Below are positions 3,804 through 64,000 of a DNA stretch of 64,000 nt, one piece after another. Made by a program: the position numbers and the translations under genes. Source of the DNA: Suillus spraguei (lineage: Eukaryota > Basidiomycota > Agaricomycetes > Boletales > Suillaceae). Under the pieces are notes generated by a model. It made no database searches and had not been told where the DNA came from. It saw only the letters and a program-made list of their open reading frames with translations. Numbering within the stretch: the stretch's first letter is position 1; each line of letters opens with the position of its first letter. The stretch lies in contig JABCPU010000037.1 of NCBI GenBank assembly GCA_016800925.1, positions 124,001 through 188,000 of the forward strand, in the 5' to 3' direction.

Positions 3804-4558
3804 ATGATGCGTCTCTACAATCTGCTTCCTAGTCTTATTATTGACTGCTACCCTTGTCTCTTCTCGTCCAAATACTTTTTATTTGACACATTCTTTTCGA
3901 ACGCTGTCAACTCTGTCGTACAAAACACAAAGCAGCTCCATTCCTTCACAATGCAACTCAACCTGCGACCCTGTCATCGATGAAGTGAACGCTGTAATCT
4001 GTATCCATTGTCCTGTCCGTGTCATATGCTAACTCTCGTCCAGGTATGTCCCATAACCGCATGCTGCAAGCCTGCACCCAGTCTTGAAACAAGCTACTAC
4101 AGCTGCCTCTTATGCGTCTGCACTGCATTGAATGTTACAGATCGTACACAGGTACAAGCCGATCTAAACCGTAAGCTCAGCTTCACATTAGTAAAACAAA
4201 TCCAGGTCAATTACCTGATCAACTTGAATATATACACTAGAACTCTGTCTCTTGCTATGATAACGGCTTCCTTTTCCTGGTCAAAACCCGTCCTGTACTC
4301 TCTCAACTTCCTCTCCTGCTGGAACTTCTACCACTACCGGCACTTCACCTGTGTCTGTATCGTCACCTATATCCATCTCAAAGACTACTATTTTCAAGCA
4401 TTTCGCCCACTGTCTCAGGGACGTCGACCTCTGCCAATGGTACTACGACTTCGTCCACATCTACACCTACAACACCAGGTGCTGCGCTGGGGCTAAGCGC
4501 AGGAGAAAGCGGAATCTGGGCTTTGGCTGCTGCTGTTATAGGACTGACCATGCTGTGA
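3804..4558 (+). pseudogene. GPI-anchored Ser/Thr- and Cys-rich secreted protein, frameshifted
   Basis: The reconstructed layout is that of a fungal cell-surface protein. It has a hydrophobic signal-like N-terminus at 3804, a Cys-containing block Q-C-N-S-T-C-D-P-V, and an intron of about 50 bp (GTAATC donor, TGCTAAC branch site, CCAG acceptor near 4041). A second Cys-rich block follows (about 4042-4170), then a Ser/Thr-rich linker, and a C-terminus with a small-residue G-A-A site followed by a hydrophobic tail A-L-A-A-A-V-I-G-L just before the stop at 4556-4558, the classic GPI signal. At least two single-base frame changes are needed (near 3840 and near 4390), so it is broken. The GPI tail recurs inverted at 7709-7912. 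Function unknown; surface location is inferred from the architecture only. Confidence 0.6.
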
Positions 4559-51021: not shown

Positions 51022-51268
51022 AGGCCGTCTGGCGTCTACACAACACAATCGCCGTGAGCGTTGATGTCGAACGCTTCTTGGTCCCTTACCAAGTGGCACC
51101 CCTTCAAGGACCCCGGAAAACATCAACCAACTTTGCGCCCAACGGCGTCAAAGGCGTCAACAACGCCTACCCCGTCCCCTTTCTGCTACCTTTTCCTATT
51201 ACTAGTCTATACACACATAAAGAACGTACTACAAAAACCAAAAAAACAACGAAAATATCGAAAAAACC

Positions 51269-52966
51269 ATGGCTCCAACGCCACCCAAGACTCTCCAAGC
51301 TACCAACCAGTCTGTAATAGCAACTGTAACACCGACCACTAGAGGACGGAAGACTACCGCGAGCAAACCTTTGCTATCCAAAAGTAAAGAAATAGAAAAT
51401 CACTTAACTGACCTAGACATCAGATCCGAAATCAAAAACAGCATTTCCGCTAAAAAACTGCTACTGTCTCATGGACTAGACCTCCCCATCACCTGTAATG
51501 CTATCAAGCAGATAGCACACGCCCTGCTGGAATACAGCATCACAGCGGAAGTGGGAGCTACACACGTCGACATACTCCAATCAATGGCTATACTACTCAT
51601 CGAAGCCGAAAAGAACTTAGACGCTGCAAACCTGATAGAAAAATTCACAAACCTAATACAAGGACCAATCGCGCAACTAGAAGAGAAAGCTACGAGAATC
51701 GAAGAAGCAACAGCAACTCACAAAGAAGCCCTGGAGAATGCGGCGAAAGAGCTGCATGGCACTTTAACTAACTCGTCAGAAAACATTGAGAAAGCAATCC
51801 TAAATGTGACCAAGGCGTCGCAAAACATGCCAAAAGTCACGCAACCTGAAGGGATGCAATCATACGTGAACGCAGTCAAAACTAATGCTCCTCCCCCACT
51901 GACCAAACTCCTAGCTCGCGGAGAAGCACAGGCAAGACAAATACTCCTGGATAGACGCTCGTATGGTGAAATAGACACCTTGCGAGGACTAACTGAAGCG
52001 GAACTCGTCGCCAAAGCGAAACTAACCTTAGAACTTATAGAAAAAGATGGCCTCACCATCCACCAAGGCCTAACGTTTCAATCAGCACGAAGACTCCCTC
52101 ACGGCGGTATCCTATATGAACTCGACTCATCAGAATCAGCAAAATGGCTCAGCATCCCATCCCACAGAGCAAAATTCGCCGTCAACTTCAGGTCAAACAC
52201 CACAATCAAGGACCGGTCATACAATGTTCTGGTCAAGAACGTCCCTACATCCTATGACCCCAGCTCAATACGCACCAACACGGACATCGAAACAAATGGC
52301 GGACTCAAGCCAGGCACCATCACTAAGGCAAAATGGATTAAACCGGTAACCAGACGCAAAGCGAATCAAAGGACAGCACACGTGATCATCACTCTCAAGA
52401 CCAAGGAGAGCGCCAACCAAATCCTCCACTTCGGCATATCGATAGAGGGAAAGAAAGTATTCGGACGCAAACTCCTCCCAGAACCAACGCGATGCCTCAA
52501 ATGCCAATCATATGATGGATCGCACATTGCAGCAGAATGCACTCAAGACCATGATACGTGCGGAACATGCAGTGCACATCATCGCACAGCAACTTGCAAA
52601 GTAGATGATCCTAACTACTACCAATGCGCTAACTGTGATTGCCAGGGTCACGCCTCATGGAGCAGAGATTGCCCATCCTTCATCGACAAGTGGGAAAGCT
52701 TCAAAAACTGATCAGAAGACTCAAAGTACTGCTACTTCCCCACTGAAGACCCTCTCACATGGGAAAAGACAGAACACCACGCCGAGCAATGGACTGAGCC
52801 ACCAAGACAACCAACATGGACCCAACCGGCAACAGACACCAACACCCATGGCAACTATGGACGCCTCCTCACGAAGATACCTCAACCTCAACCTCACCCG
52901 CAACCTCAACCTCCAACTCGACAAACCAATCCGCTTCAAGAACAGCCAAAGCGACGCCAACCATGA
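51269..52966 (+). pseudogene. LINE ORF1 (Gag-like, three zinc knuckles), one premature stop
   Basis: The start ATG has a good context (ACCATGG). A helical, Glu/Lys/Ala-rich middle (residues ~110-190) can form a coiled coil. Three zinc knuckles follow near residues 410-475: C-L-K-C...H...C, C-G-T-C...H...C and C-A-N-C...H...C. A TGA at 52709-52711 ends the frame at 480 codons. Beyond it the same frame continues with Y-F-P-T-E-D-P-L-T-W-E, the usual C-terminal motif of this ORF1 family, to a TGA at 52964. The first stop is therefore a nonsense mutation (CGA expected). The protein would bind the LINE RNA. Confidence 0.85.
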
Positions 52967-53178
52967 GCAAACCCAAACAAGCTCCCAATAGGACTCAACT
53001 CTCAAGCACGCCTTATGGACAACTGGCTCAACTCACAACCAACCAACGAAAACAACCCGGACCTGCACGCGCAATCAAACTCACCTCAGATCTCCTCCGC
53101 CAACACCACACCCTTGTGGTTCCCTTCCTCAACCCCAGACATCAACATCGGTAGCCCCTCACCATCCGACTTTGCATA

Positions 53179-54886
53179 ATGCAGGACAACAGTAACGAAC
53201 ACCCTCTTCACCTTGACTTTAAAATCTGGCAACAAAACTTACGAAAATCTTCTAGCGCCTGGGAGCACATGCTCCGAAACCTTAACCCTGAAAAGTACGA
53301 CCTCGCCTGCATTCAAGAACCATTCCTCAATGCAGTGGGACTCGCGAACGCCTCAAACCTCAGACGATTCTGGGACGTAATATACCCCACCAACCATCAC
53401 TCAAACCCCGAAAGGTCGCAAACCATCCTGCTCGTCAACAAGAAGTTATCCAAGAACAACTGGCACATCATCCCACTTGACACACCCAACATCACGGCCA
53501 TCGAGATTCACGGAGACTTCAGAAAAGTACGTATCTACAATATCTATAACGCCTGCGATCACTCGAGAACACTCCAATTCCTGGAGAAACATATAATCTT
53601 AGAAGAGGCTGCCTCCCGCAACCTCCCCCGCACTAACACTAGAAACAAGAATGACAGAGATAATGCCCACATGATATGGATGGGCGACTTCAACCGTCAC
53701 CATCCCATGTGGGAAATGACCAGCAACTCTCATCTATTCACCGCGGCAAACTTAGACACCACGGGTATACTAATTAATCTCCTCGCAGAATACAACCTCA
53801 TTCAAGCTCTTCCCCCTGGCATCGCTACCCTCGAAGCCTCAAACACGAAAAACCATACCCGACCAGACAACGTCTTCTGCTCAGCCAAAATCGAACAAAT
53901 GTTCACCAAATGTTCTGTAGAGTATCAATTACGCCCTGTTATTACTGACCACTTCCCTATAATAAGCACCCTAGATCTACAGCCAGAACGCATCATCACG
54001 GCCCAGTGGCCGAACTTCAGAGAAGTAGAATGGGACGAGTTCAGAGAAGCCCTTTCATCACACCTTGACACACACCCTCCACCTGCTAATATTCAATCCA
54101 TAGAAGAATTCAAAGTAGCCTTCGCTCACCTCACCCAATCCATCGCCAAAACAGTGGAGGATCACGTCCCGAAGGCCAAGCAGTCACCTTACGCCAAACG
54201 ATGGTGGTCAAATGATCTCGACATTGAATGCAAACAGGTACATAAACTAGGTAAGAAAGCAAGAAAACTACTGGCTTGACGACAAGACCCAATCCATGAC
54301 GAGTTCCGCCTTGCCCACAACCGATTCTCAGAGAGCATCAAGACAGCAAAGAAAGAACACTGGGAGGAATGGCTCGAGGCAATCACACCCAGCAACATAT
54401 GGGATTTCCACTGCTACGCAGCCAGTGACCCGTCAGAACAGATCCATACAAGAATCAAAACGCTAAAAGACCCGAGGGACCCCAATGAAACGAACACCAT
54501 GCAGGACAACGCGAGGAAAAGCGAACTCCTCTACGATGTATTCTTTCGACAACCACCCAAGAATGAACATGTTGAGCCCAATTTCACTTACAATCCTCCT
54601 ATCTGCGAATTCGCTCCAATCACTAACGACCAAATATTCCGCGCCATAGAGAAACTCTCCCCGTACAAAGCCCCAGGACCGAACGGAATCTGTAATTGTG
54701 TATATAAGAAATGTACTGACCTCCTAGTGCCATACATGGGACCCATCTTTCGTGCAACATTCGCACTTGAACACTACCCCGAAGACTGGAAATTGTCGTC
54801 AACGGTAGTCCTACGAAAACCAGGAAGACTGGACTATAGTCTACCGAAAGCTTACCGACCAATAACCCTGCTCGACACCATGGGTA
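53179..54886 (+). pseudogene. LINE ORF2, 5' part: endonuclease and start of reverse transcriptase
   Basis: The AP-endonuclease-like domain has W-Q-Q-N-L-R-K-S, C-I-Q-E-P-F, W-M-G-D-F-N-R-H-H, R-P-D-N-V-F and T-D-H-F-P-I, so all expected active-site words are present. A TGA at 54277-54279 (CGA expected) is the only stop before the transposon. The reverse transcriptase begins with A-P-G-P-N-G-I and A-Y-R-P-I-T-L-L-D-T-M-G and is cut in the following Gly codon by the Plavaka element. It resumes at 62876. Confidence 0.9.
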
Positions 54887-54910
54887 CATCAGGAAAACAT
54901 CGAGTTCCTT
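54887..54910 (+). repeat. Plavaka left terminal inverted repeat
   Basis: 24 bp, an exact inverse of 62850-62873. Subterminal words TTCCTT, CCTTAG and TAAGG are repeated at least ten times between 54905 and 55045, as expected for transposase binding sites. Confidence 0.95.
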
Positions 54911-55374
54911 TTCGGTCCTTAGCTTACTTAAAGTTCCTTAAATTTAATTCTAAGGCTGCTAAGGAGAATAAGGAACTAGTGTGTTCCTTAGCGAAATGTA
55001 TTTTAAGGAGTGAAGTCATTTCAAGGCGGTTAAGGCATCAAAGGCAGTTGTATTTTTGAAAGTAAAATAAGTAAAATAAGGCGCCTGCTGAGCGCCAAAA
55101 AAAAACATGTTATGTATTATGTTAGTGCTTACTTCAATAAGCACTGATAGACGCGCAACACGCCGACAACAACTCGCTCGTCATCTACACATCAATCACA
55201 GAAATCTACAAAATCTAAGAAAAAAACATCATAGTAAGTTTTAATTGATAATCGTCGTGTCAAACATTGCTTACCAGGTGCTAGTGAATCAGATGGCTCC
55301 AAGATCTCGCGTGCAACTGCAATGAAAGACATGCAAGTGGGGAGATGTGGCTGTCCGGGCGGAGGCTGCAATCA

Positions 55375-55441
55375 GAGCTGAGGCGAGGGCAGAAGAAGCG
55401 GAGGCGAGAGCAGAAGAAGCAGAGGCGAGAGCAAACGAGAT
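55375..55441 (+). repeat. 21-bp tandem repeat, three units
   Basis: Units close to GAGGCGAGAGCAGAAGAAGC. On the minus strand they encode an Ala/Ser-rich S-A-L-A-S-A-S tract at the end of the chimeric frame that starts in the RPB1 fragment. Confidence 0.75.
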
Positions 55442-55639
55442 GAAGGCGAGAGTGGGAGAGGGATTATTGTGCTTCAAGTTCTTGAAGAGGGCGGGGGCCG
55501 TTTTTGAAGGAATCGAAACAGAGCGCGTTGCTCGAGCCTCGAGTGACTGTAGACCATGGTGAGTGCGAGTACATCTCAAATTTGATGAGAACTTACCTAT
55601 CATTTGAGCAGGAATCGAGACAGAACGTGTGGCTTGAGC

Positions 55640-56400
55640 GTAGAGTGAGTTTTGTATGAGTGTATAATAGTGAGGATTAAGGCCGTCTGCCTGGGGAAAT
55701 ATGAATTGTCGTAGAAGACGGCGGTCGTTCAAAAGCTCGTTGTATTCTTCGTCCAACTTCATCTGCAGCTCCAGAGAGCTATCATCAACGCCAATCTGGA
55801 GGGTATTAGGCAAGAATCCGTGACATCAACGCGATAGTTGTGCTCAAAGGCTTCATTGTCAAGGCCAAACGTCTCAATCTTCTGACGTTTGATGAACGCA
55901 CCGTCCATACCATCTTCACCATACACGAACTGGATGAGGTCTCCAAGCGAGTTGCGAACAGTGCCATCATAGTGTACCATCACGTCCTCCAATGCCTTGA
56001 CAAGACGACCTGTCCAAGAAGATGCATTTCATGTGAAATCACGCAATTGCAACGCTTTACCTGTTTTTGAATCTCGCATAATGATACCAGTCTCTGCCTT
56101 CTTGATGGCCATATCAATAAGACCTTCTCTTCCAGCCATGGCATGGAAGAAAAACTCCTGTGGCGTCAACCCTCGTAGATATGAGTTCTTGACAAAGCCA
56201 CATGCCTCCAGGCTGAAGTCGTCCTTGGTGAAATGGGGAAGAGTATGATGACGGAACCTGAATGGGATTCGACGATTTTCAACACTTTGCTGCCCAACAC
56301 AGATAGACATTTGCGAGATGTTGATGTATGAACCCTTGGAACCAGCTGTGACCATCTGCTTCACGTTGTACCCAACAGCGAGGTTGAAGGCGGCAGGCCA
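55640..56400 (-). pseudogene. RPB1: Captured fragment of RNA polymerase II largest subunit gene (RPB1)
   Basis: The minus-strand frame from about 56378 reads [28 protein letters not shown], then [17 protein letters not shown]. These are the funnel and bridge-helix segments of RPB1. Exon A ends at 56061, and an intron (56060-56010, GTAAAG...GGACAG) joins it in frame to [13 protein letters not shown] and Y-G-E-D-G-M-D follow. A small frameshift near 55815 precedes [12 protein letters not shown] and L-D-E-E-Y. About 215 of the ~1700 codons of a full RPB1 are present. Retention of the intron means capture at DNA level. It lies inside the transposon, same strand as the transposase. The frame then runs into a non-RPB1, Ala/Ser-rich stretch. 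Confidence 0.9.
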
Positions 56401-56442
56401 GGAAAGCCGCACAACCCATATGAAGATGATATGGTCTTGGAG

Positions 56443-56530
56443 CCTACCTGCGTGGGGAAATGTGGGTTGTTGTAGGGGCGGCGGTTGTCGAGCATTGCAT
56501 TGTATTCTGTCATCTAGATGGGTCTGTAGG
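56443..56530 (-). pseudogene. Second, older RPB1-derived piece
   Basis: The minus strand here aligns to the RPB1 segment at 55685-55770 (the L-D-E-E-Y to F-I-F-P exon end) with roughly two of three bases identical, but it lies upstream of the bridge-helix part, out of order. It implies either two captures or an internal duplication followed by decay. Confidence 0.6.
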
Positions 56531-56581
56531 GTATTTAATTAGCAAAAGGACGACAAAATGAGAGGCAAGGATGTACCACAA

Positions 56582-59500
56582 TCACGCTATTTCAAAAGCG
56601 TGGTGATCGGCATATCTGTTGACATAGTAGGAGTTGAACATGTCGTATGAGTCGTGTGGACTTATTTTTGGGATAAAGTCCGGGCCATAGACTGGAATGA
56701 GATGGGCAGCGCGAAAGATACAATCGATGTGAATAATTGAGACGTCTGGGACATCGTCACCAGTTGTCGTCGGCACGACGACATACATGCCTGTGTCGGG
56801 ATCGCGTTCTTCGTGAACATAAGAATACCAATGAACTATGGCGCAGGGATAGTATGAGGTCCGATAGTTAAATGAGAAAAAGCAAAGGACTCGCGCAACT
56901 GCGAGTCCATTCATGGGAGAGTCGAAGTCAACACCCATGTTGATGAAGATACAGTCATGCCTTGGTTCGCCAGTGCGCCACGATGGTGTTGCCCTGATGT
57001 GCTCGCGACGCATACCTCCCGTACCACTCAGATCACTGGGTGCATGGAACGAGGCTGCAGCAGAATTAAAGAGGGTGAGTTTCCCTAGGAATACTTGCGC
57101 TGTTGCCGGATCAAACTCAGGAGGGTTGGGATCGTCTGAATAGTGTTGATCATGTATGAATTCCTGAATCATAAACGGGAGGCGTGGAAGGTCGAGTTCG
57201 AGGCTGAGTGCATGAACATTTCGTGCACAACCTATTCATTGTCAGAAAGGGTCCAGGAGCAAAACGTTTAACATACGAGGAGTTAATGCAAGCTCAACAT
57301 GGGACTCTACAGTCGGTCCATCAATAATCTCACCAGCATCCACTTCAATGGATTGATTTTGAGGCTCGTGGATACGCAGTCGCCCATGATGGCCTTCTTG
57401 CGCCATATTAGCCTCCGCGTCGTCATCTGGTTCTAAGTCGTCGTCTGCAGGAATATTCTGACCTATTGGGGATATGAGAAGGGCTACATCGTCAGCGAAA
57501 GATCACGTACGTCTCCTGAGTTCTCCCAAAGCATTGGACAGACAAGAGCCACGAAGCATACCACGTGCCTCAAAATCTACGTGAGCGGCTGCAAGTTTGT
57601 CGAGGCGTTGATTTGTTAGTAGCATTTGTCCGAGTGCGTTAAACCTGCTAGATCGGCGCCAAGGTTCTTTAACTGCCTTGATGTGCTTGGACTCAGTAAT
57701 TGAAGAGCAAAGGCCGTTGGGTGCGCTGAAAAGTCGAATCAGTACTATGTAGTGGCACAGGGAGTGTTGACGTGGAAGGGAGAATGTCGAGACCACACCG
57801 GTTGTCTTGAAGATCTCCCGATATTGGTGAAAGCGGTCGAGGGCATCTTGTAGTTTTACGAGGTCATCTTCAGTGAGAGCCTCACGCCTCACAATGTAGC
57901 AAAATTCTAGAAATGCACTGAATGTGCGCACCACATCTTGAGGAACATGACCTTCAATTGCAGCTAGATAGACCTAAATACAAGTCAGCTCACATGTTGT
58001 TTGGAACGGAATACACAGCATACCTTCATTAATGCCTTTGAGTCGTCACCCGTCCACTGCCGAAAACCTCGCCCATCAGGAAAGCGTCGCAACCCAGCGA
58101 ATGGGGCAACTGCTGCTATCCTGTATGTTATTAGTAGTTATCAGCAAAACATCATAGATTTGCGTACCTGCGGTCAATGTCATCCATTATCTCAGCCGCA
58201 TGACGGGTACCGTGTGTGACCAGAAGATACTCTCCCACCCAATCAACCAGATGATCCTTGAAAGTTCCCTTGATTATTTGATGCAAGATATCCGGAGATA
58301 GGAGCTCGTGGATGTCCGCTCGAGGAAAGTCATTTGTAAATGGCTAGAAAAGCAAAAAGGTGAGATTGGACCTAGCGAGTTTCAGCGAGCAACTTACAAC
58401 AAGATCGGCAATGATGCCATACTGTTCCCAAGCCTGTTTGTATGTGAGTTGTTCGACGAGCAACTCGGTATGTGCTTTGCGTCGATGGAGACATGGTTGA
58501 GCGCCGTCAAGGTCCTTCCTATTTCCTAGACACCTATTTTGATAATAAATAAGTCGTTAAAAAGCAAAACAAAGTTTGATGATGCACCGTGGACACCAGT
58601 TCTGCACGACTCCAGAGAGAAGTATCTGTTCTGGATAGTCCGCTATGTAAGGGCCCAAGCTGTACACCGTTCGTCGATAGTGGCCATCCGGAAAGCGTGT
58701 GACATCGAAATTTTCCATGAAAGGTTTCACAGACTCGAAAATCTTCGCAAGGGAGCGCTGGAATAGCTGCTGTCGAAAATTTCTGTATTTGATGTCGTCA
58801 TTATGTTCCTTCGTAGCTAGACAAATGAAGGTTATGATACAGTGATCCATTGAGAATAACAAGCACCTACATTTCGGTATCGCAAGAAATACAATGAGCA
58901 CAACACCATTGCGATGTGCCCGTTGTACGCTATTGTGAATGTTCCCGATTGAGAGATAGAGTGGGTGGTATTCGGTCTGACCAGTAGCGACAGAAACAAC
59001 AGTCTTATCACTGCCGATAATCAATGGTACAAATGTCGAACCATGATTCTCCTCATTTTGAGCGATAACATCCTTGAGATGATTGTTAGTATGCCAAAAA
59101 TGTAAATATGAAAGAGACGTACTGCCTGATTCCACGCCCAGTCACCAGACATAAAGTTCTTCCAATATCGTTTGTCCTCGGTAGTATAATCGCGGTAGGG
59201 TGAATACTCGATTACTCCATCGAAATCACAGTTTGCCAAAATGCCACGCGTCATCTCCAATGGATCTCTATACCAGACATCATATTGTCCATCCATCCAC
59301 GGCGGTACATCTTGTTCGGGTTTGGCTCCGTTGTAGCACAACGTAAAGCTCTTCCAAGGGGTATCGCCGAGTGGTGTTGCATCAATTGTAGCGTACATGT
59401 CCCTATGGTTTGCAAATGGGGGGGCGTCATTGTGCTTTATGAGAGTTGCGGCCCACAAGTCGAGAAGTGTATCAATCTGCCTTGCAGACATTTGATTGCG

Positions 59501-59991
59501 CGTGAATAAGAATTCCGCCGTCTCAAATTCAACACGATTGTCATAAGGCGTCCAATCGGTTGGGGGGGCATCCGTGTGAGGTGGCGGGGGTGCATCCTGG
59601 TCAATAAATGCCCCATTAGCATCGCATTTGAGTCCTAAGACAAAAAATGAGTAACAGTAATATGAACTCCTTAAAAACGCCCACCTGTGAGGTGCGGATG
59701 GAAAGTACGCAATAAGCGCCCCATATCCGCCCAAGTACCTTCCTCAGGTACAAAACCCTGGTCACCAGCCGGGTCATCATAAATATTGTCATCGATAACA
59801 CCTGCCGGAGTGGGAGAATGACTCCGTGGAGGTATAAATCCGGGACCTGCGAGCGGAGCTGTGCGATTGAGGTTTTGTATTTGTGGGGTACCATGCTTCA
59901 CATGTGTGTGCTGAGTGAGGCCAGACTTGTTTTTGAAGACCCGATTGCAGTTTGGAAACCGACAAACAAGCCTGGTGACAGCTGGAGCCAT
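56582..59991 (-). CDS. Plavaka transposase, intact, 10 exons, 985 aa
   Basis: The minus-strand exons are 59991-59685, 59634-59123, 59072-58871, 58816-58588, 58533-58398, 58343-58168, 58120-58024, 57973-57511, 57462-57277 and 57231-56582, 2958 nt in total. All introns are about 44-54 bp with GT-AG ends, and every phase fits. The N-terminus is a C2H2 zinc finger (C-x4-C-x12-H-x4-H). The core has R-D-P-L-E, S-P-Y-R-D-Y, G-D-W-A-W-N-Q, G-S-D-K-T, L-S-I-G-N-I, P-D-G-H-Y-R-R, A-D-Y-P-E-Q, P-F-T-N-D-F-P-R-A-D and T-E-S-K-H-I-K-A-V-K-E-P-W-R-R, the hallmark blocks of the Plavaka family as I remember it. A Glu/Asp-rich insert (exon 9) precedes a C-terminal domain. No stop or frameshift was found, so the protein may be functional. 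I did not assign the catalytic triad. Confidence 0.93.
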
Positions 59992-60206: not shown

Positions 60207-62527
60207 ATGGCTCGACCTGCAACGCGCCCAGGGAATGCTAACAAACATCCTGGACAGATAGTTCTTGAAGCGAGTTGCGTAGCACGTCCAAAGGATGTAC
60301 TTGCAGCTGAAAGAAAAAAGGCGTCAGCAGAGAAATCAGCCAAGGCAACCGCCTTAGAAGATGCTCAAAAGAAGGTCGCTGCAACGGAAGATGCTATGGC
60401 TGTTGAGCAGACGGCTCAACGTGCTGGCCCAGGACGCCTTGTCAGACCAAAGCCTAAGCCGTGCCCAGTGACCAAGGCAGTGCCAACTGCAAACCCCAAC
60501 AATACGCGTAAGCCTTACGCAATACAATGCTGTTGCAAGACTTACCAGTTCTTTGACATTGATACAGCTGTTGGGGCAAAACCAGTGTCCAAAAGCACTG
60601 ATGCCCCGAAGAAGAAATATCCAGGCTTGAAACTCACCTTCAAGGATGGTGTCAACGCCAATCGAAAGGTGTCCAACAATGGTACATCATCTACAACGTG
60701 CGTTGTACTAAGCGTGGGCAGGGGCAGTGACAGTGGGAAAAATCGAAGGTCGTTGTAAGTTCATCTTAACTGCGATGTTACTCTTATCAGAGCTGACTCT
60801 TTATTACTTCGACATATTTCACTCACTGCAATGTAGGGGATCTGAACACGCCATATCGACAGAGGAGGTGGAAGTGGGGAAGTGGGCTAAAAGCATGGCA
60901 TCGAAGTCCCAACGGAAGCCATCTGCGCCACCAAGTGCACGTGCCAGTGGTAGGTTCAGTTTCATGTCTGCACACATTGCTAACAGTTTTTAGTGATTGC
61001 AAGCAGGGATGCGGACATATCCGAAGACGAAAACCTACCTGAAGATCATGATGAGAGCATAACTGTGAGTCGGGGTAGTCAGGTGAGTGACTTCATGATT
61101 GTGAATGGGGAATGCTAAAATCAATGCAGGGTGTCGTGCGTATGATTGAGACTATTGATGATGCCACGAGGGGACGGAAGCGTACCTTGTCCACGACCTC
61201 GTTGGATGACCTCGAACCCGAAGAGCCGCGTGAAATGGAAGAAGACGATGCCGACGAATATATTCCGGACAAGGATGAGGGTGCGGCTGAGGATGAGGAT
61301 GAGGATGTTGAGATGACGGATCAGCAGGGCGACATTATTGAGGTAAGTACTGGTGGGTCCTGTGAGATAGATGAATCGCTCACCACTATCATGGATTTAT
61401 AGGTCTCAAGCAGTCGACTCACAAGCTCTGTATGGAGAATTTGCTCAGGTCGCCTGACAACGCTGACAAATTCCTATGCAGATGTCAGTTAGCGTCATGG
61501 ATACCACGATGGATGGTCCAACATCCAAGTTCATCAAAACTGGAAATGGACGTGCGCCACGTACGATACTCAATCTGAAGAAAGAAAAGCCAAAGAATTC
61601 TCACTTGCCCAGCGCTGTTCAGAATCTCAGCTTTCGTTCCATATTTATTCCAACGGTCATGTACTGGGTCGGCAACAACAGCTATCCATGGACCATCCCC
61701 GATGAGAAACTCTCAGACGTTCTCGAGGATATATTCATGGCGGTGTGTAAGCAGCCTGGAGACTTTAGGAATGATGATGGCTGTAATCTCGCCTTCAACG
61801 TCGTAAGTAAATTGTATTCTGGTACTTCTAGCTGACAACTATGTTGGCAGGTATGCCAAAGGATCTCTAAATGGAGAGGCAACTTCGGTTCCACTGCTAT
61901 CACAATTCTCATGGCGTTTTTCGCCTCCACGGACGAATTCAAGACCAAGGAGGCACGCAAAGACTATGCCGAGTATCAACTTGAAGATTCACGCTTTGTA
62001 TATGAAGATCCAGATAACGAAGACTCACCTGGAGCTTTTTTATCGGAATTCATCTTGCGCATCTTCGCTGTTCAACTCAATGCCACCCAAGGACGCCAGA
62101 TAATTGACTTGCTCGACTTCGGCTTACCTGGATATCAAACGGCCCTTGCACTGACCACTGCAGCCGTGAGTTTTGCAGCGCCTTTACAAAACTTGCTAAC
62201 TTTCATTTGCAGGCCGAGCGTGCACTTATTTTAGCTCGTGACAACCTGATTGTGGAAGATACTTCGGACCACAGGAAACACAAGATCGCGTTGACTCTCA
62301 ATCAGTCTACAAACAAAATGAGTAACACAGGCACTGCTTTTTCTGCGGGTAATTGGGAGACTGATACACTCGCGTACATGGAACGAATCGAGGAGCTGCC
62401 CTTCGACCGCATCAAAGAAATTGTGGAACGATCTCAGGCGTACATGAAGCGTGCTCGCCGCAAGGACGAGTCTACTATTCTCGATGGAGAAACCCCCGTG
62501 AATCCACATACACGTATCCGTATCTGA
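60207..62527 (+). CDS. Plavaka companion protein, about 637 aa, unnamed family
   Basis: My exon model is 60207-60754, 60837-60949, 60994-61082, 61130-61342, 61482-61802, 61851-62165 and 62213-62527; phases are consistent. The intron 61343-61481 is unusually long (139 bp) and might hide a small exon. The N-terminus, R-P-G-N-A-N-K-H-P-G-Q, is followed by an Ala/Lys/Glu-rich coiled-coil-like part with A-E-R-K-K and A-T-E-D-A. The middle is acidic (D-E-D-E-D-V-E-M), and the C-terminal half is globular with F-I-P-T-V-M-Y-W-V-G, F-G-S-T-A-I, F-I-L-R-I-F-A and A-E-R-A-L. I recognise the family as very common in mushroom genomes but know no function. DNA binding or transposase partnering is inference from position. 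Confidence 0.8.
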
Positions 62528-62849: not shown

Positions 62850-62873
62850 AAGGAACTCGATGTTTTCCTGATG
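62850..62873 (-). repeat. Plavaka right terminal inverted repeat
   Basis: 24 bp, an exact inverse of 54887-54910, followed by the duplicated TA. Confidence 0.95.
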
Positions 62874-62875
62874 TA

Positions 62876-64000
62876 AAATTCTGTCCTCCTGCGTAGCTAA
62901 TGACCTAGTCTATATAGCGGAATGTCACAACCTTCTACCCCCGACACATTTCGGTGGACGACCAGGGAAATCGACAGTAGACTCCCTGCACTTGCTGACA
63001 AAATTCACAACAGATGCATGGGCCTCAGCGGAACCCTTCGTCTCAATACTATTCCTAGACGTCAAGGCAGCCTTCCCGTCTGTAGTAGTCAATCGCATGC
63101 TACACAACATGAGACACGTGGGAATCCCACTGGAATATATCAACTGGTACAGCAATCGACTCAGCAACAGAAAAACAACTCTGCATTTCGACGACTACAG
63201 ATCCGATCTCTTCAATGTCTCAAATGGTGTCGACCAAGGATGTCCCTTGTCGGTTATAGGAACTGGCAGCGCGAGGTAAAGATTACGACGAAGCAAACGG
63301 AAAGCTTAAGAATATGATGGAGAAACAAGGGGGCGCGCTGGATTGGAGCAGAGAACACAATGCTGACTTCGAACTAGATAAGATGGCCCTCCTTTGCGTC
63401 TCAAGGAAACGAATCACCGACCCCAACCAGAGGAACAAGACTCTCCCAGTTCCCCGCCCATCCGTCTCCATCCGCAACCACATTATCGAACCCTCCAAAT
63501 CCCACAAATTTTTGGGAGTTATAGTAGACAACGAACTCACCTTCAAGGAACACGCCACGTATGCGCTGGCAAAGGGAACACGATATGTAATGGCATGCCA
63601 AAGAATGACACGAGCAGCAAAGGGAGTCCATGGACGACTGTTGAAGAAACTGTACGAAGGTGTAGTGATTCCTAAGATGCTCTATGCCGCCGATGTATGG
63701 TGTTCAGGACTGATTGCGAAAGGAAGAGGGAAGAAAAACGCAGGAAGAGGAGCACGAGGCTTCGCCTCGAAGATGGAACGAGTACAAAGAATGGCAACGA
63801 CGATGATCACGGGCGGGATGAGAACCACCGCCACAGATGTCCTTGATGCGCACGCTAACATACTCCCCTTCCAACAGTTATTGCGCAAAGTATGCCACAG
63901 AGCTACTCTACGCATGGTAACACTAGACAAGACCCACCCCCTCCACAAGGGCATCCGCGCAGCATACAACTCATGTACCAGAAGGAACTTCGAAAGTTGC
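62876..64000 (+). pseudogene. LINE ORF2, 3' part: reverse transcriptase with catalytic loop deleted
   Basis: The frame resumes with K-I-L-S-S-C-V-A-N-D, L-L-P-P-T-H-F-G-G and D-V-K-A-A-F-P-S-V (first catalytic Asp), then Q-G-C-P-L-S. Right after this, at about 63255-63285, the reading jumps to D-Y-D-E-A-N-G-K-L-K. The piece that normally carries the F/Y-x-D-D box is missing, so the enzyme is dead regardless of the transposon. The frame then continues open to the window edge with S-K-S-H-K-F-L-G and L-Y-A-A-D-V-W-C. Confidence 0.85.

Follow-up and report, generated by a model that had tools for sequence, protein, structure and literature searches.

A PlavakaB-type DNA transposon of 7,987 bases in Suillus spraguei carries, just inside one of its ends, a piece of the gene for RPB1 of RNA polymerase II. 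The element lies in the window, a stretch of 64,000 nucleotides that is part of contig C558, and the S. spraguei genome (86.2 Mb) was searched with it. The most probable reading, to which we give a probability of about 0.78, is that RPB1 of another lineage was captured by a PlavakaB element, that the chimera entered S. spraguei and multiplied there, and that the piece is now a non-coding, decaying passenger.

The ends of the element were located at window positions 54887 and 62873 by comparison of seven copies in unrelated surroundings. Perfect terminal inverted repeats of 24 bases (54887-54910 on the plus strand, beginning CATCAGG, and 62850-62873 on the minus strand) are flanked by a TA target site duplication at 54885-54886 and 62874-62875, and the element is thus complete at both ends, as an earlier note on this DNA had claimed. 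An exact 22-mer of the terminal repeat is present at both ends of all seven copies, each with the termini CATCAGG..CCTGATG. The two-base target duplication matches in five of the seven copies (TA, GA, TC, CC and TA) and is absent at the C394 and C354 copies; the chance of at least five matches in seven is 1.8e-5. Both the termini and the duplication agree with the description of PlavakaB in the available sections of PMC12730594, that is, termini 5'-CATCA..TGATG-3', a target duplication of 2 or 3 bp and a Plavaka transposase domain. The copies differ by a 774-base insertion in that on C354, near window position 58502, and a 534-base deletion in that on C442, near 59683. Further exact 22-base end sequences at C333:317, C739:318 and C220:9052, two of them close to contig starts, are perhaps parts of more elements. 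The window copy was inserted into a LINE-type retrotransposon on the plus strand, left of the insertion at 51221-54886 (Pfam Exo_endo_phos_2 within 53155-54279) and right of it at 62876-64000, since the LINE reading frame is continuous once the flanks are joined minus one TA.

The transposase gene, with several exons, occupies 56582-59991 on the minus strand, as judged from Pfam matches, reading frames and predicted S. spraguei proteins, two of which are among its best matches. It holds the Plavaka transposase domain PF18759 (E 3.1e-56 and 5.3e-30) and shows a weak C2H2 match near the N terminus; its stop codon is at 56582-56584. The domain places the element in Plavaka (CMCT group), for which the available sections of PMC12730594 give catalytic residues with C(2)C and H(3-4)H motifs. 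Among the reading frames in the right-hand part of the element, one at 61836-62234, on the plus strand opposite the transposase, matches DUF6532 (Pfam PF20149, E 3.7e-7) and the rest match no Pfam family. The TET/JBP dioxygenase family was not found among the 12 element frames scanned with Pfam.

The captured sequence covers RPB1 domains 4, 5 and 6 on the minus strand (Pfam E 7.9e-21, 2e-11 and 3.9e-6), so that RPB1 domains, a transposase domain and exact ends are combined in a single element, as proposed in the earlier note. The upstream part, 56081-56369 on the minus strand, contains domain 4 and the start of domain 5 and is 91% identical to native L009:4851-5139, and the downstream part, 55667-56009 on the same strand, contains domains 5 and 6 and is 88% identical to native L009:4490-4845. 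Together, 211 whole codons align to the resident RPB1 (contig C1224, locus L009), against about 215 claimed before. A frame-shifting deletion of 13 bases lies near 55820 in the downstream part of all seven copies. The piece lies some 780 bases inside the left end, in the same orientation as the transposase and downstream of its stop, which bears out the position near the left end, the sense orientation and the closeness to the transposase 3' end first described. Next to it are a second, degraded copy of L009:4510-4591 at 56448-56529 on the minus strand (69% identity, E about 3e-5) and a short scrap at 56371-56440, on the plus strand opposite RPB1, resembling a host gene frame on C300 (80-81% over 70-75 bases), a frame for which no Pfam family was matched. 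The insert is therefore a composite of the RPB1 piece, a second degraded RPB1 copy and a C300-like scrap. The range 55289-56530 previously assigned to RPB1 holds in part: RPB1 sequence is present at 56369-56081, 56009-55667 and 56448-56529, but the left part, 55289-55647, is Plavaka left subterminal sequence similar to an RPB1-free element on C224, the resemblance lying in 55289-55425 and 55609-55647.

Between the two halves of the piece, 71 extra bases (56010-56080, minus strand) are absent from the native gene. They are intron-like, with formal GT..AG introns at 56060-56010 (51 nt) or 56087-56010 (78 nt), and to this extent the spliceable intron of the earlier note has a formal counterpart. 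The resident RPB1 reading frame, however, runs straight through the matching site, and an 85-base stretch around the extra bases was found by genome search in the seven element copies only. Inheritance of an intron from the host gene is therefore rejected, and the idea of an intron-containing piece of that gene finds no support for this host: in the proposed alignment to the resident locus the codons found their counterpart and the intron did not. The predicted protein of S. lakei skips the intron-like stretch in its gene model.

A search of the genome for further Plavaka copies with the same insert, as had been suggested, gave seven full element copies, all with the RPB1 insert between the same ends, and pairwise 98.2-98.8% alike. 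Relatives without RPB1 exist as well. The one on C224 shares all 24 bases of the inverted repeat and is similar over 54887-55425 (60%) and 55609-55647 (82%), and the one on C401 resembles the end of the transposase gene (56577-56803); no RPB1 match was present in the stretches read of C224, C303 and C401, both strands being searched. A nuclear gene fragment thus lies between the transposon ends, is absent from related elements and has moved to several loci, as in transduplication, and capture by Plavaka, the central claim made earlier, is upheld.

For comparison at the protein level, 14 proteins were examined, taken from the best 120 of 383 matches. The S. lakei protein P0165 contains the same RPB1 piece, joined to Plavaka sequence at the same point; it has five of the replaced residues in common with the window copy and lacks the 13-base deletion. 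A metagenome protein, P0121, has the other junction of the chimera together with the intron-like stretch. In the model of S. subalutaceus P0252, the end of a Plavaka transposase (72% alike to P0241) leads into another part of RPB1, at about residues 590-706 of the native frame; this was the only significant RPB1 match among the best 120 of 2,268 Plavaka proteins. On S. spraguei contig C473 (L064, C473:60900-62100), an RPB1 part overlapping that of P0252 is present in two overlapping tandem copies and adjoins a stretch that resembles Plavaka subterminal sequence (83% over 58 bases, then 61%). The RPB1 parts of P0252 and C473 may be separate captures or the remains of one larger capture. In Suillus genomes, as P0165 and P0252 show, RPB1 scraps in transposons have entered the annotation as genes or been merged with transposase models.

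RPB1 scraps are not confined to this element. With the resident RPB1 frame (1,144 residues) as query, at least 43 matches were detected in the genome, one in the native gene, five on C298, one on C480, 16 in the seven Plavaka copies and 20 elsewhere. Those on C298 and C480 were taken for polymerase I/III paralogues. The 20 others lie at 15 or more places on 14 contigs, C473 included, and several have equal scores, as expected of repeats. All counts of the genome searches are lower bounds, the best 40 of 65 candidates having been scored, and the C473 stretch was missed by one search and found by another. In the S. spraguei assembly, the search with the resident frame revealed no full-length RPB1 besides the native gene. 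No clear scraps were detected for four control genes: RPB2 domain 6 matched three loci, taken for native genes; 478 residues of the C480 paralogue gave no scraps of their own; the PROCN domain of PRP8 matched one locus without scraps; and HSP90 matched one locus and gave, within 2 kb on C358, a second group of matches, taken for a paralogue. RPB1 domain 5, searched in the same manner as the Pfam controls, was found on C322, C357 and C858 besides the native gene, the paralogues and the seven Plavaka copies. Since one control was searched as a protein and three as Pfam families, the four cannot prove RPB1 to be special.

On the contigs carrying the other scraps, no site within 3 mismatches of the element's inverted repeat was found, and six Plavaka proteins tried showed no similarity in L022-L025. 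L022 (C202) consists at 4101-4554 of head-to-tail repeats of a short RPB1 stretch (native L009:4429-4582), and no Plavaka similarity was found there. L023 and L024 (C322) and L025 (C532) contain RPB1 pieces in native order with internal deletions, likewise with no Plavaka similarity found; a stretch common to these three is repeated sequence.

Based on the codon differences, we can also predict the source of the piece. Between the captured piece and the resident gene there are 40 silent changes and 11 replaced codons (dS 0.36, dN 0.023), two of the replaced codons being at the edge of the 71 extra bases. Without CpG transitions and these two codons, 28 silent and 3 replacing changes are left, whereas a local neutral capture predicts about 64% replacing (P 7e-10). 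The mostly silent differences point to a working RPB1 from another Suillus lineage as the probable donor, and not to the resident gene, an argument in which silent divergence comes from one pairwise comparison, captured against resident; most of the divergence, we conclude from these counts, would have arisen between two working genes, before the capture. The RPB1 scraps on C322 (L023), which look locally decayed, served as a yardstick with 16 silent and 34 replacing changes, in contrast to the captured piece (Fisher P 3e-6); the pattern also differs from that accumulated after the burst of the element (P 3e-8). The C473 scraps gave 12 silent to 19 replacing and 13 to 14, and the short C202 scraps were more silent-rich (7/5, 3/3 and 5/2). 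For ten of the 11 replacing differences, the native residue is kept by 117 to 120 of the 120 homologues compared, and the captured residue at these ten sites, two of which adjoin the extra bases, was seen in none of them. The eleventh, E433Q, is the residue of S. luteus P0004 and of P0005, but site 433 varies widely (Q in 7 of the 120 homologues) and the hint at a species is therefore weak. A second hint, the N in VTDGKNG, was seen in the S. lakei copy only and is shared by most of the Suillus examined. The captured residues are of Suillus type; over 351 residues, the resident RPB1 is 99% identical to that of S. placidus, 99% to S. decipiens, 98% to S. luteus and 93% to S. paluster.

An origin of the piece in an ancestral form of the resident RPB1, followed by drift within this lineage (the capture from the host of the earlier note), would agree with the Suillus type of the captured protein, with the single full-length RPB1 found in the assembly and with the upstream half of the window copy taken by itself (14 silent and 10 replacing changes, against 28 and 2 downstream). 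The excess of silent differences, together with the contrasts to the C322 scraps and to the post-burst changes, makes this origin quite improbable, and plain drift from the resident gene is disfavoured. The same silent-site pattern would be left by a second RPB1, a paralogue or an introgressed gene, once present in the S. spraguei line, captured there and later lost. The many RPB1 scraps in the genome might be read in that sense, but no second full-length gene was found, and the junctions common to the S. lakei and environmental copies fit movement of the element, so that we regard a lost second gene as unlikely. The preferred origin is capture from a different Suillus lineage, followed by entry of the chimera.

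Within S. spraguei, the piece has behaved as the rest of the element. Changes of single copies from the majority in the RPB1 codons comprise 9 silent and 34 replacing ones, the latter including 4 stops, a ratio of 1.05, and the RPB1 piece has thus drifted neutrally since the burst. Over the whole element, 404 of 432 changes among the seven copies are C-to-T or G-to-A, and 383 are at CpG on either strand, corresponding to a mutation rate of 6.3% per CpG against 0.1% elsewhere, about 60 times that of other cytosines. This excess of CpG-to-TpG changes suggests methylation-linked mutation, by a methylation-like or RIP-like mark. CpG sites were hit in 42 of 504 cells in the RPB1 piece (8.3%) and in 157 of 2800 in the transposase part (5.6%), the RPB1 piece being the higher (Fisher P 0.025). 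Each copy shares 63 to 95 exact 21-mers with native RPB1, the longest run being 44 nt, which makes targeting of the native gene by small RNA possible. The matched part of native RPB1, however, has a CpG observed/expected ratio of 1.12, the highest of five parts of the exon.

These observations bear on whether the piece serves the element. It might be kept through silencing RNA, either by making silencing of the element costly to the host or by shielding it from methylation. The sense orientation 3' of the transposase, the shared 21-mers, the other RPB1 part that adjoins Plavaka sequence on C473 and appears in the S. subalutaceus transposase model, and the recurrence of RPB1 scraps with none clear for the controls would all accord with such a role. 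CpG loss in the piece is not below that of the transposase part and gives no sign of shielding, and the native gene without CpG depletion in the matched part bears no trace of an effect in trans; with the neutral decay of the piece, retention by silencing is a slim prospect. Shielding, as put forward before, is accordingly left without support, and so is the silencing of native RPB1 proposed with it, while a recent small-RNA effect on the native gene is possible from the shared 21-mers. A broader version, in which Suillus Plavaka elements repeatedly and preferentially gain RPB1 parts at the transposase 3' flank, RPB1-homologous RNA gives a transmission advantage (e.g. by making silencing costly to the host) and the chimeras cross species, also appears improbable to us. 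Translation of the piece and selection on it as part of a transposon protein would agree with the low ratio of replacing to silent differences from the native gene and with the gene models in S. lakei and S. subalutaceus. The neutral drift and the undiminished CpG loss speak against a protein role, as do the frame-shifting deletion in all seven copies and the changes at residues nearly fixed in homologues, and we consider such a role hardly credible.

In the reading that we prefer, a PlavakaB element would have taken up the RPB1 piece and a short scrap of another gene at the DNA level, most likely through an error of gap repair or a switch of template in the subterminal region. The donor would have been RPB1 of a Suillus lineage other than the present host, as the silent-site pattern suggests, and the chimera may have reached S. 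spraguei by transfer or hybridisation. It recently multiplied there to at least seven copies, in which the piece lies 3' of the transposase gene as a non-coding passenger and, like the rest of the element, decays chiefly through CpG-to-TpG change. Such a piece is a datable and species-tagged passenger, and can show the origin of a mushroom transposon. RPB1 is a common marker gene in fungal phylogeny, and transposon-borne scraps of it can therefore lead phylogenies and gene models astray. What stays interesting in the case is that parts of RPB1 recur; if their recurrence in different repeats is non-random, it would allow one to test whether transposons gain from pieces of the transcription machinery.

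Capture of gene fragments by DNA transposons is a known kind of event, and the unexpected feature here is the donor. In plants, Pack-MULEs and CACTA/Tgm-Express elements enclose fragments of two or more host genes between their ends and multiply them with the element, and a Pack-type element is non-autonomous, with gene fragments in place of the transposase. The present element likewise contains fragments of more than one gene, but it retains a transposase gene of its own and its RPB1 fragment seems to come from the lineage of another species. No description of an RPB1-carrying Plavaka was found in the open PMC papers searched. The termini, two-base target duplication and transposase domain are those of PlavakaB as given in the available sections of PMC12730594. 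Some PlavakaB elements carry a TET/JBP dioxygenase as cargo, according to the same sections (Biology 2025;14:1741, PMC12730594), whereas the cargo here is a non-coding RPB1 piece, with no TET/JBP among the 12 frames scanned. The main text of a paper on Helitrons of Pleurotus ostreatus (PMC4289320) contains neither 'RNA polymerase' nor 'RPB1'. As described in its available part, the gene-like sequence captured by those Helitrons lies downstream of the element's enzyme gene, and the S. spraguei element, although of another superfamily, is similarly a mushroom transposon with captured sequence 3' of its own enzyme gene (PMC4289320).
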